A stretch of DNA of 64,000 bases from Melioribacter roseus P3M-2 (GTDB taxonomy: Bacteria > Bacteroidota > Ignavibacteria > Ignavibacteriales > Melioribacteraceae). Of the stretch, positions 36,601-60,520 are shown in pieces; position 1 is the stretch's first letter, and each line of letters opens with the position of its first letter. The position numbers and the translations under genes were made by a program. Location of the stretch: positions 1,612,001-1,676,000 of the forward strand of contig NC_018178.1 of assembly GCF_000279145.1 (NCBI RefSeq). The letters are read 5' to 3'. The notes below the pieces were generated by a model. That model was not told the DNA's origin. It did no database searches and worked only from the letters and a program-made list of their open reading frames with translations.

Positions 36601-36780
36601 ATGAAAAGAGTACATCGGTAAATATGCCATGGTAATTTAAATCAATTTAAACAAAAAAATAATGATATTAGAGGGTTTTCGGATTTGGTCCCGCCTATGG
36701 CGGGATAAACTCCGGGACTTATGAAGAGTATTAATCGGTAAGCATATACTGATAAATTAGTCGATTTAAAATAAAAAACC
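36601..36780 (+). repeat. Imperfect 60-base direct repeat flanking a palindrome
   Basis: The 60 bases at 36601-36660 resemble those at 36721-36780, starting ATGAA and sharing GTA, ATCGGTAA and a TTTAAA-rich end; the offset is exactly 120. Between them lies the perfect palindrome TCCCGCC-TAT-GGCGGGA (36689-36705), a form common in intergenic mobile repeats. No reading frame is supported in this stretch. Confidence 0.4.
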
Positions 36781-36797: not shown

Positions 36798-36803
36798 TAC
36801 CAG

Positions 36804-36876
36804 AGCTGGCGAAGGGACTTGAACCCCCGACCTGCTGATTACAAGTCAGCTGCTCTACCAACTGAGCTACGCCAGC
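36804..36876 (-). tRNA. tRNA-Thr (anticodon TGT)
   Basis: Reads threonine ACA-type codons. On the minus strand the 73 bases fold as a full cloverleaf: acceptor GCTGGCG/CGCCAGC, D arm with GTAGCTCAGTTGGTAGAGC, anticodon loop CTTGTAA with anticodon TGT, and T arm GGGTTCAAGTC. Discriminator base is T and CCA is not encoded. Degenerate 5' half copies lie immediately upstream of it (36877-36995). Confidence 0.95.
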
Positions 36877-36894
36877 ATTAAACAAAAAACCTAA

Positions 36895-36995
36895 AGTCAG
36901 CAGCTCTACCTCCGTCGGCTGACGGATGAGCTACGCCAGCATTAAACAAAAAACCTAAAGTCAGCAGCTCTACCTCCGTCGGTTGACGGAGGAGC
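36895..36995 (-). repeat. Two degenerate 5' half-tRNA-Thr copies
   Basis: Copy 1 (36895-36958, 64 bases) and copy 2 (36959-36995, cut short) match the intact gene's 5' half plus its upstream spacer (36844-36894). In copy 1 the acceptor 5' strand and D stem are intact. In both copies the D-loop GTT is replaced by a 16-base hairpin, TCCGTC-AGCC-GACGGA (with AACC in copy 2). Identity to the tRNA ends after anticodon base 34 (CTT), followed by TAGGTTTTTTGTTTAA, the spacer that also precedes the true tRNA. No 3' half exists, so they cannot make tRNA. Confidence 0.85.
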
Positions 36996-37105
36996 ATTCA
37001 ACTTTTTAAAATTGACGTCTGCAAATCTACTAAATTATCCTATTTGAGTGCAATATCGAACGGAATTTTTTTTTATCTTTGCCGACAAGTATAAATCTTA
37101 CAACT

Positions 37106-57459: not shown

Positions 57460-57490
57460 ATAAAAACAAATCCCGCATAAAGCGGGATTG
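57460..57490 (-). terminator. Intrinsic terminator of pfkA
   Basis: On the minus strand AATCCCGC-TTTAT-GCGGGATT (57468-57488) is followed by TGTTTTT. It sits 70 bases after the pfkA stop. Confidence 0.75.
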
Positions 57491-58690: not shown

Positions 58691-59587
58691 TTATCGTAAT
58701 TTTAGAGTGACTTTAAAATGTAATTTAGCAAATTTTTGCAATTTATCTTTCCCGATATTTTTCGCCGCTTGCAGGACTGCATCCGAGGCTCCTTTGGGCA
58801 AGTCTAATCCTTGCTCTTTTAGTTTTAGGAACCATTCGTTGAATTTATTTCTTGCCAGAATCGAAGCGGCGGCAACTCCCGTATATTTTTCCGCTCCTGT
58901 TTCCATTATGAACTTGATATCTTTCGTATCAATCGACGGATGGATTTCCAGATTCCTGTTGCTGAATTTATCCGTTATTACAAGATTACATTGAACTCGC
59001 TTTAGAAGTTTGCCCGTAACCAAAGAATGACAATGAACGAGCAGTTTGTTCAGATTCCGGTATTGATCGTACAATCGGTTGTAATCTTCCGGCTCAAGAG
59101 AACAGATTTCAAAGTCATTTCCGATAATTTGTTTAATAGATTCGGCAAGCAAATCGATTTGAGTATCGCTTAAATCCTTGCTGTCGCGCACTCCTATCCG
59201 TTTTAATTTTGAGGCGGTTTCCTTATTCACATAAACTGCCGCAACTACCAGCGGACCGAAATAATCGCCTTTGCCGCATTCGTCCGAACCGATATATTCT
59301 TCGTATTCGATGTCGTCATTTCCAATCTCAGGAGAATTTTCGTCGAAGACAGCGCTTTTGATTTTGTTATATTCGAACGAATCCGGGTCGCCCTGAATTA
59401 CAATCTTATTTCCTTTCTTACCGAAATAAACCTGTACTTTTACTTTCTTTTTATTGTAATTAACCGTGAATTCGTAGTTGTAATTTTTTTCTTCGATATC
59501 CGAAGGATTAAAATCCATTGTTGAAATTTTATTTCGAATAGATTTGATAATATCGAAAGCCGATTTTTTAAAGCCGGTATTTGTCAT
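58691..59587 (-). CDS. rnhC: Ribonuclease HIII
   Basis: Cuts RNA in RNA/DNA hybrids. The 298-residue protein has an N-terminal TBP-like substrate-binding domain (about 1-85) and an RNase H fold with the HIII motif GSDECGKGDYFGP, in which Asp-Glu are catalytic, plus later acidic residues (DSKDLSD, ITDKF). It differs from HII by the Asp-Glu start of the motif and the N-terminal domain. I chose the ATG at 59587; a TTG four codons upstream is also possible. It is likely transcribed with pfkA (28 bases downstream). Confidence 0.9.
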   Translation of the reverse strand: MTNTGFKKSAFDIIKSIRNKISTMDFNPSDIEEKNYNYEFTVNYNKKKVKVQVYFGKKGNKIVIQGDPDSFEYNKIKSAVFDENSPEIGNDDIEYEEYIGSDECGKGDYFGPLVVAAVYVNKETASKLKRIGVRDSKDLSDTQIDLLAESIKQIIGNDFEICSLEPEDYNRLYDQYRNLNKLLVHCHSLVTGKLLKRVQCNLVITDKFSNRNLEIHPSIDTKDIKFIMETGAEKYTGVAAASILARNKFNEWFLKLKEQGLDLPKGASDAVLQAAKNIGKDKLQKFAKLHFKVTLKLR

Positions 59588-59730
59588 AAGTATAAACAAA
59601 ATTAATTGGAATCGTAACTTATGAATTTTAGACGAGAAAATTGCTTACCCGGCGTGAATTACCTTTTTCAATGGAGAAATTCGATAAAATTTTGTAATCT
59701 TGTGACCGTCTTTTTAAGTAATTATGGTCA

Positions 59731-60006
59731 GGAGAGGTGGCAGAGCGGTTGCCTGTCCGACACAGACGGAAATGCGGCGGTCTTAGAAGGCTTATTGAGA
59801 ATAAAGTTCTTTCATTGACAACGGAGAGGTGGCAGAGCGGTTGCCTGTCCGACACAGACGGAAATGCGGCGGACTTAGAAAACTTATTGAGAATAAAGTT
59901 CTTTCGGTTATTACGGAGAGGTGGCAGAGCGGTTGCCTGTCCGACACAGACGGAAATGCGGCGGTCTTAGAAAACTTATTGAGAATAAAGTTCTTTCATT
60001 GACAAC
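59731..60006 (+). repeat. Three tandem 92-base units of truncated tRNA-Ser
   Basis: Units start at 59731, 59823 and 59915 with an exact period of 92. Each has the tRNA-Ser 5' half (acceptor GGAGAGG, then GTGGCAGAGCGGTTG), a 19-base D-loop insertion CCTGTCCGACACAGACGGA, the D-stem/anticodon-stem part AATGCGGCGG, and then leaves the tRNA sequence after anticodon base 34 (CTT). An imperfect hairpin AACTTATT/AATAAAGTT and a short spacer close each unit. The three differ by a few bases. No 3' half is present, so none can be a tRNA. The fourth position of the series is the intact tRNA-Ser. Confidence 0.9.
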
Positions 60007-60093
60007 GGAGAGGTGGCAGAGCGGTTGAATGCGGCGGTCTTGAAAACCGTTTGGCGCTTGCGCGCCACGGGGGTTCGAATCCCTCCCTCTCCG
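60007..60093 (+). tRNA. tRNA-Ser (anticodon TGA)
   Basis: Reads serine TCA-type codons. The 87 bases form a class II tRNA with acceptor GGAGAGG/CCTCTCC, a long variable arm (TTGGCGCTTGCGCGCCA region), anticodon loop CTTGAAA with anticodon TGA, T arm GGGTTCGAATCCC and discriminator G. CCA is not encoded. It has no D-loop insertion, unlike the three units before it. Confidence 0.95.
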
Positions 60094-60520
60094 CAAGAAA
60101 ATTATACAAAAAACTCAATTGATTTCAATCTATTCCTTTTTGCTTCGTGAATTATAATTCTGTCTTTATTTTAATATGAATAGCTCTTGTGGAAGGAGAG
60201 TGCATTTTTTGAATTGTGATTGTATTAGTAATCTATTTTTTTAAATACTGCCTCACAATTGTCTTGCATTCATTCTTTAGGAAATCCTTGTTCCTCTAAT
60301 TTATCTTAACATTACATAAAATGTAACCCCTAAAATTTTTATAATATTGCAATCCTTTTTTAAAGCATCGACCCCAAATGTAAAACTTTTGTAAAACCTG
60401 CAAATGAAGCTCTGAGAAAGAGTGTATTCTATTTTATTTTGATTATGTTAGCTGATGTGTATAACGTAAAAAAATTACACATCAGAACAATAAGTAAAAA
60501 GTAAACATCGGAACAAATCA
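60094..60520 (+). other. Gene-free 427-base AT-rich leader region
   Basis: No supported gene. It holds a palindrome TTACAT-AAA-ATGTAA (60312-60326) and, near the next start, a 10-base inverted repeat (separate entry). A weak direct repeat of ACATC-GAACAA also appears near 60480 and 60505. These suggest control of the gene at 60521. Confidence 0.5.
60452..60485 (+). promoter_or_regulatory. Perfect inverted repeat upstream of the 612-residue protein
   Basis: CTGATGTGTA (60452-60461) and TACACATCAG (60476-60485) are perfect complements around a 14-base AT-rich spacer, ending 35 bases before the ATG. It can act as an operator in DNA or a hairpin in the leader RNA. Confidence 0.5.

Follow-up and report, generated by a model that had tools for sequence, protein, structure and literature searches.

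Group I introns with GIY-YIG homing endonucleases are found in tRNA genes, where they combine a homing nuclease with a tRNA target and the function of the gene is kept. In the REP/RAYT systems, short palindromes are associated with a small mobility protein, and the mitochondrial double-hairpin and GC-cluster elements are likewise short mobile palindromes. SegB of the T-even phages is a free-standing GIY-YIG homing endonuclease that cuts inside tRNA genes, and the tandem amplification of a tRNA segment in phage T6 needs this enzyme (PMC13096335). SegB of phage T6 is the closest precedent for the locus analysed here. This locus is a tandem array of partial tRNA-Ser copies within a 64,000-nt stretch (the window) of the genome of Melioribacter roseus, a single contig of 3,300,414 bases. 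Our search of the literature, which was incomplete and had most subscription papers and bioRxiv outside its range, found no publication that describes split tRNA copies together with GIY-YIG genes on bacterial chromosomes. We conclude that the array probably belongs to a GIY-YIG homing element directed at tRNA genes, in a form without an ORF.

Arrays of split tRNA copies in the M. roseus genome

Three units of exactly 92 bases stand in phase with the intact tRNA-Ser(TGA) (Table 1). A preliminary description of this DNA had claimed as much, and both the coordinates and TRF (period 92, 3.2 copies, 93% match, 0% indels) agree with it. Each unit consists of tRNA bases 1-21, the 19-nt insert CCTGTCCGACACAGACGGA, tRNA bases 22-35 and a 38-nt spacer. 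Bases 1-21 are identical to the tRNA gene in all three units (21/21) and bases 22-35 in two of them (14/14), unit 2 having one difference, and the pairwise identities among the units are 84/92, 86/92 and 90/92. No 15-mer of unit 3 was found elsewhere within the window, and across the whole genome a match over most of the unit was found at this locus only. The array has no nuclease ORF, and a promoter scan of positions 59550-60250 gave no plus-strand prediction.

According to the preliminary description, each unit keeps the acceptor 5' strand and the 5' anticodon stem of the tRNA and nothing after base 34; the insert that splits each copy was absent from it. The partial 5' copy is indeed there, but its ending is not clean, since TCTT or ACTT is followed by a single additional A, which two of the three units continue with GAAAAC, the sequence found in the tRNA. 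The same-genus relative has TCTTGAAAAC at the corresponding place, without the extra A. The anticodon-loop site TCTTGAAAA is also broken in the window units, by one inserted A that is absent from this relative. The hairpin AACTTATT/AATAAAGTT, in which the retained part was said to end, did not hold up: it is imperfect, altered in unit 1 and missing from the predicted minimum-energy folds. The 19-nt insert itself is a poor palindrome with a TCCG/CGGA stem and a 7-nt loop. The two further genome sites that match part of it both lie in dispersed repeats of one 10.6-kb stretch, which also harbours a free-standing GIY-YIG gene.

A second array of the same kind accompanies tRNA-Thr(TGT) in the window, and in its unit nearer the gene TCCGTCAGCCGACGGA replaces D-loop bases 15-17. 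Two more palindromes lie in the window outside the arrays, TCCCGCCTATGGCGGGA at 36689-36705, downstream of the tRNA-Thr, and TCCCGCATAAAGCGGGA at 57471-57487.

Table 1. Features of the two window arrays, by position in the window, and split tRNA copies across the M. roseus genome, by side of the tRNA gene.
Feature	Position or side	Strand	Description
tRNA-Ser(TGA) unit 1	59731..59822	+	92 nt; split 5' tRNA-Ser copy and 38-nt spacer
Insert of unit 1	59752..59770	+	19 nt, CCTGTCCGACACAGACGGA; imperfect palindrome that separates tRNA bases 21 and 22 in the D-loop
tRNA-Ser(TGA) unit 2	59823..59914	+	92 nt
Insert of unit 2	59844..59862	+	identical 19 nt
tRNA-Ser(TGA) unit 3	59915..60006	+	92 nt, abutting the intact gene
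Insert of unit 3	59936..59954	+	identical 19 nt; 16-nt part at two other genome sites
Intact tRNA-Ser(TGA)	60007..60094	+	presumed target; D-loop site GGTTG^AATG between 60027 and 60028
Intact tRNA-Thr(TGT)	36803..36876	-	with second array of the same kind
tRNA-Thr(TGT) unit	36877..36940	-	64 nt; palindrome TCCGTCAGCCGACGGA flanked by tRNA-Thr bases 1-14 and 18-34 (the latter with one difference), then spacer
Further tRNA-Thr(TGT) unit	36941..37004	-	64 nt; 5' part degraded, palindrome TCCGTCAACCGACGGA
Val(GAC)	upstream		five units of 136 nt
Gly(CCC)	upstream		about three units of 76 nt
Arg(ACG)	upstream		four to five units of about 100 nt
Ser(GCT)	upstream		two units of 357 nt
Thr(TGT)	upstream		two units of 64 nt
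Ser(TGA)	upstream		three units of 92 nt
Cys(GCA)	upstream; downstream		one; one
Asp(GTC)	upstream; downstream		one; one
Two Met(CAT) genes	downstream		five units of about 110 nt; two of 98 nt
Pro(CGG)	downstream		two units of 311 nt
Asn(GTT)	downstream		one copy
Ser(CGA)	downstream		one copy, decayed, without palindrome

The survey of the genome covered 43 tRNA genes, the two in the window and, in stretches around them, the other 41. Split partial copies adjoin 13 of the 43, upstream or downstream. The copies are interrupted at the D-, anticodon- or T-loop, and the units stack in phase, measure 64-357 nt and contain at most one ORF each, for a GIY-YIG protein of about 80 aa. An automatic test for split copies was positive for 12 of 42 entries (two identical Glu genes were merged, and the Cys copies, beyond the gap limit, were added by eye), whereas the controls with reversed flanks and with the flanks of another tRNA both gave 0/42. 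Assembly at repeated elements was verified by PCR and sequencing, according to the M. roseus genome paper (PMC3534657); the words GIY-YIG, tandem, mobile and transpos are absent from its main text.

The linked nucleases and their relatives

Nucleases of 79-87 residues are encoded in the 311- and 357-nt units and in those at Asn, Cys and Asp. Five tRNA-linked proteins of this genome, of 79-87 aa, exceed the PF01541 cut-off, and the GIY-YIG domain fills most of each. At this length they correspond approximately to the catalytic domain alone, and a separate DNA-recognition domain was not found in them. Residues Y5, Y16, R26, H30 and E62 are invariant among seven aligned nuclease sequences. Sequence relatives among solved structures are UPF0213 (1zg2, E 2.5e-13), SLX1 (7cq2, 6.1e-5) and I-TevI (1mk0, 0.008), the last two being larger and having additional domains.

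The whole genome contains 20 GIY-YIG matches, 18 of them above the Pfam cut-off. Twelve of the 18 domains lie less than 700 nt from a tRNA, at seven tRNA genes, and all 12 are on the tRNA strand; the number expected in this tRNA-proximal part, 1.45% of the genome, is 0.26. Three of the 12 have in-frame stops. The remaining six domains are 6 to 219 kb from the nearest tRNA.

A shortened GIY-YIG ORF lies directly downstream of Leu(CAA) (L026, genome positions 2778327-2778412) without a partial tRNA copy, and it is perhaps a decaying element. Free-standing GIY-YIG genes in L063 (G000:C1:3123400-3134000) are surrounded by the dispersed repeats TGTCATTCTGA[..]GAAGAATCT and TGTCATACTGA[..]AAGTATCT, and such genes in L046 by GTCATTACGA[..]GAAGTAATCT. 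The outer halves of these repeats match and the inner palindromes vary; two share the palindrome core of the window insert.

The linkage of nuclease and tRNA extends to other genomes. Three M. roseus nucleases were used as queries against bacterial and archaeal genomes, and the best 80 of 190 relatives were kept. A tRNA lies less than 400 nt away in 42 of these 80 loci, on the opposite strand in none of the 42, and less than 700 nt away in 47, of which 23 have a split copy according to the automatic search. About 15 of the 33 other loci retain palindromes in tRNA-like sequence when read by eye. Judged from record titles and tree labels, the hosts of tRNA-linked nucleases belong to Bacteroidota, Ignavibacteriota, Chlorobiota, Cloacimonadota, Kryptoniota, Balneolota and Levybacteria. 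When the nuclease of Ser(GCT) served as query, 39 of 116 genomes of the order matched (E <= 1e-18, own genome included); all 30 loci fetched, the own one among them, have a same-strand tRNA within less than 700 nt, and 18 of the 30 have a split copy by the automatic search. The Met-type nuclease matched 37 of 395 genomes of the phylum (E <= 1e-15, own genome included), and 26 of the 30 loci fetched, again with the own one, have such a tRNA; the other four are long rows of nuclease genes or contig ends, with flanks only partly visible. Some loci in these sets overlap (L137/L139, L107/L224, L188/L217, L195/L227 and L189/L216). The nuclease gene thus stands at or beside its presumed target in the M. 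roseus genome and in both of these searches. The automatic search found no split copy at part of the nuclease-tRNA loci (24 of 47 and 12 of 30 Ser-type loci), which we count against the homing reading. Also against it, no tRNA link was seen for 13 related nucleases of a mostly Bacillota clade, nor a tRNA less than 700 nt away at any of 39 viral loci.

Nuclease-bearing units with the layout of the window array are present at tRNA-Ser(TGA) of other genomes. In L211, an order-level relative, three 316-nt units precede this tRNA, each of which combines the 5' portion of the tRNA with palindromes, the tRNA sequence as far as the anticodon loop and a nuclease ORF, and L219 has three nuclease-bearing units of 323 nt. 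The insert in L105, L212 and L214 is at 21|22, the same position as in the window. One decayed unit was found at tRNA-Ser(TGA) of the same-genus genome (L185). Among 19 relative Ser loci (for L187, one of its two Ser genes), alignment shows units at six, one has a relic recognized by eye, two have a nuclease ORF directly upstream and ten showed none. Related sites therefore vary between presence (9/19) and absence (10/19), and the site is filled, multiplied or empty depending on the lineage. The recent amplification proposed in the preliminary description is supported by this variation in copy number, together with the identity of 84-90/92 among the window units.

It is unlikely that the array arose simply by tandem duplication, through slippage or unequal crossing-over beside the tRNA, with the GIY-YIG neighbours being incidental. 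The units are short, tandem and alike, the window array is without a nuclease gene, and tRNA loci readily recombine, all of which would fit such an origin. However, the split design is repeated at 13 tRNA genes, mostly with a palindrome at a loop position and with empty automatic controls, and other genomes have the same layout at tRNA-Ser(TGA) with the nuclease included.

Longer rows of nuclease genes were also seen. The longest, of eight genes at a spacing of about 365 nt, one of them with a stop, is at G164 contig 34:6988-9763 (part in L252), and a tandem row of five at the same approximate spacing is at G269 contig 1:135233-136921 (L234). L128 and L145 are titled Bifidobacterium breve and Streptomyces griseus, yet their nucleases group with rows of Bacteroidota and Chlorobiota; these metagenome bins may be mislabelled.

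The palindromic inserts and their positions

We collected 52 distinct inserts from the M. roseus genome and the first 80 loci, some places being counted with two overlapping pairings. A TCC...GGA palindrome with a stem of at least 5 is present in 37 of the 52, compared with 56 of 10400 random windows, and is missing from the other 15. A hairpin with a stem of at least 5 in any form is present in 44, compared with 543 of 10400 control windows. For the 43 distinct inserts that are 14-20 nt long, the three inner stem pairs make up 129 cells, of which 104 are complementary, whereas 1000 partner shuffles averaged 54 and reached at most 72. The sequence therefore varies while the pairing persists, that is, the stems covary. 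Some palindromes are not confined to tRNA copies: TCCGTCNNNNGACGGA occupies 11 places in the genome, five in tRNA arrays and six outside, and CCCGCCNNNGGCGGG occupies 37, three in tRNA copies and the rest outside. In the Ser type, several inserts are double hairpins whose first stem, CC-A-stem-GG, contains an unpaired A and is followed by TCCC..GGGA. Copies of the Ser type in L217/L188, L226, L229, L218 and L212 have two inserts each, at two of the D-, anticodon- and T-loops.

The Ser-family inserts occupy the positions TTG^AA in the D-loop, CTTG^AAAA in the anticodon loop and GTTC^GAA in the T-loop. Over the Ser-type copies, 48 of the TTG^AA and TTC^GAA sites are interrupted and 6 are contiguous, a count that is descriptive since the sites were picked after inserts were seen there. 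Without the re-fetched loci L217, L224 and L227 the numbers are 38 and 6, and four of the six contiguous sites are in L222, which was scored against its two tRNA-Ser genes.

Both the position of the insert and the type of tRNA follow the nuclease. On a tree of 85 nuclease sequences (79 columns; good support for 26 of 81 inner branches), there are 6 changes of insert site over 39 labelled rows, 12 with hand-set labels, as against at least 15 in 300 shuffles. The tRNA type changes 18 times over 66 labelled rows, 14 with hand-set labels, as against at least 34 times in shuffles. In L122, where a nuclease of the Val clade is found at a Met-tRNA, the insert is at 27|47, near the Val position; the Met clade has it at 37|48 or 38|49. 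Judged from these sequence comparisons, the site seems to be chosen by the nuclease or by something inherited with it. Since both the site and the tRNA type go with the clade of the nuclease, freely programmable targeting was not adopted as the main explanation.

A guided form of targeting is nevertheless conceivable, if improbable. An arm-hairpin-arm RNA or single-stranded DNA would pair with the tRNA gene while its hairpin holds the nuclease, and the element's own hairpin-bearing copy would be spared. In its favour, the nuclease amounts to a bare catalytic domain, the ends of most hairpins are constant (TCC/GGA) while their stems covary, and both arms match the local tRNA. On the other hand, the agreement of site and tRNA type with the nuclease clade fits a choice made by the protein, although co-inherited guides would give the same pattern. 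If true, this reading would describe a nucleic-acid-guided, tRNA-restoring mobile element based on an 80-residue nuclease. The homing model, for its part, leaves the hairpin unexplained since an immunity insert need not be palindromic, and a GIY-YIG nuclease that has no recognition domain makes an unusual homing enzyme.

A candidate mechanism and comparison with known systems

In the homing model, which we consider the most probable of these readings, the complete element is a unit some 300-400 nt long beside one end of a tRNA gene, comprising a partial copy split by a mostly palindromic insert and a gene for a GIY-YIG nuclease of ~80 aa, together with the intact tRNA. The nuclease would make its cut at a set place in a loop of the intact tRNA gene; in the Ser family these places would be TTG^AA (D-loop, anticodon loop) and TTC^GAA (T-loop). 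Repair from element-bearing DNA would then copy the unit in and restore the tRNA, so that the host survives. The insert would abolish the cut site in the partial copy, and the units would thereby escape re-cutting. The restored tRNA should remain cuttable, and repeated cutting followed by repair from neighbouring units could build up the in-phase tandem arrays. Loss of the nuclease gene would finally leave short units such as those of 92 and 64 nt, still open to nucleases acting in trans; for the Ser(TGA) array this would most likely be the tRNA-Ser(GCT) nuclease at genome positions 2581921-2582160. The spacers of seven short units have no 8-mer common to three or more of them, and a nuclease-gene origin of the short units is thus unsupported by spacer comparison; derivation of the short spacers from nuclease genes was rejected on this ground. 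The Ser and Asp spacers have AATAAAGTTCTTT in common, which is suggestive only.

The preliminary description proposed instead that RNase P and other nucleases would release short structured RNAs from the array if it is transcribed with the tRNA. On this reading the array would be a functional non-coding RNA or a reservoir of tRNA fragments. The array does share strand and phase with the tRNA. However, the predicted folding of the unit RNAs does not surpass that of dinucleotide shuffles (z -0.32, -0.55 and -0.07), the downstream copies at Asn and Met sit after a terminator-like hairpin (read by eye), and no copy was seen at ten of the 19 relative Ser loci. We regard such a function as very unlikely, and a selfish DNA element is favoured by the comparisons over an array of functional RNA. 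Islands with tyrosine integrases often use tRNA genes as attachment sites and leave partial copies, yet scars of such islands are hardly a credible explanation for units of 64-357 nt that have at most one GIY-YIG ORF of about 80 aa and no integrase gene in the element, lie on either side of the tRNA, are interrupted at the D-, anticodon- or T-loop and stack in phase.

A viral or plasmid origin was rejected as well, being at variance with the viral loci that encode related nucleases, none of which (0/39) has a tRNA within less than 700 nt. Phage records gave two weak protein matches (37.5% identity) and plasmids no protein match; a DNA search of plasmids gave 41 records, and the ten matches listed cover 18-21% of the query, at its tRNA end. 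The interrupting catalytic RNA of a group I intron is not seen here: the Rfam scan of the window at gathering thresholds found two tRNAs only, and the intact tRNA is uninterrupted.

If the homing model is right, partial tRNA arrays in bacterial chromosomes, easily taken for junk or assembly noise, are traces left by a selfish element that is widespread and very small. It would attack presumably essential tRNA genes and yet rebuild them, shield its own copies by the insert and expand in an accordion-like manner. It would also be a chromosomal counterpart of the amplification by phage SegB, with a compact nuclease open to direct tests of how it picks its target. The many natural pairs of nuclease and target would make the choice of a loop by a bare GIY-YIG module approachable.

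Known systems resemble this element in part. UPF0213, SLX1 and the catalytic domain of I-TevI are sequence relatives of the tRNA-linked nuclease. Unlike in the group I introns, the tRNA gene here is uninterrupted, with no intron detected in the window by Rfam. In contrast to REP/RAYT, the inserts lie in partial tRNA copies, mostly have TCC/GGA ends and are paired with GIY-YIG proteins. The double hairpins among the Ser-type inserts recall the mitochondrial double-hairpin elements, but the present inserts are bacterial and lie inside partial copies of the nuclease's presumed target. The element differs from free-standing homing endonucleases in that its nuclease is without a recognition domain and is accompanied by an insert-marked copy of the target.

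The likeness to SegB consists of a GIY-YIG nuclease adjoining tRNA genes, tandem amplification and cutting within the tRNA, the last of which is presumed for M. roseus. The SegB cleavage motif is RAWTSGAAC (PMC13096335), and in a comparison made here its reverse complement, GTTCSAWTY, appears to fit the tRNA T-loop. Unlike SegB, the M. roseus element is chromosomal and its nuclease is barely more than a catalytic module. SegB amplifies a segment with a full-length tRNA gene, whereas the M. roseus units carry a split partial tRNA copy and, in their short form without the nuclease, still form arrays.
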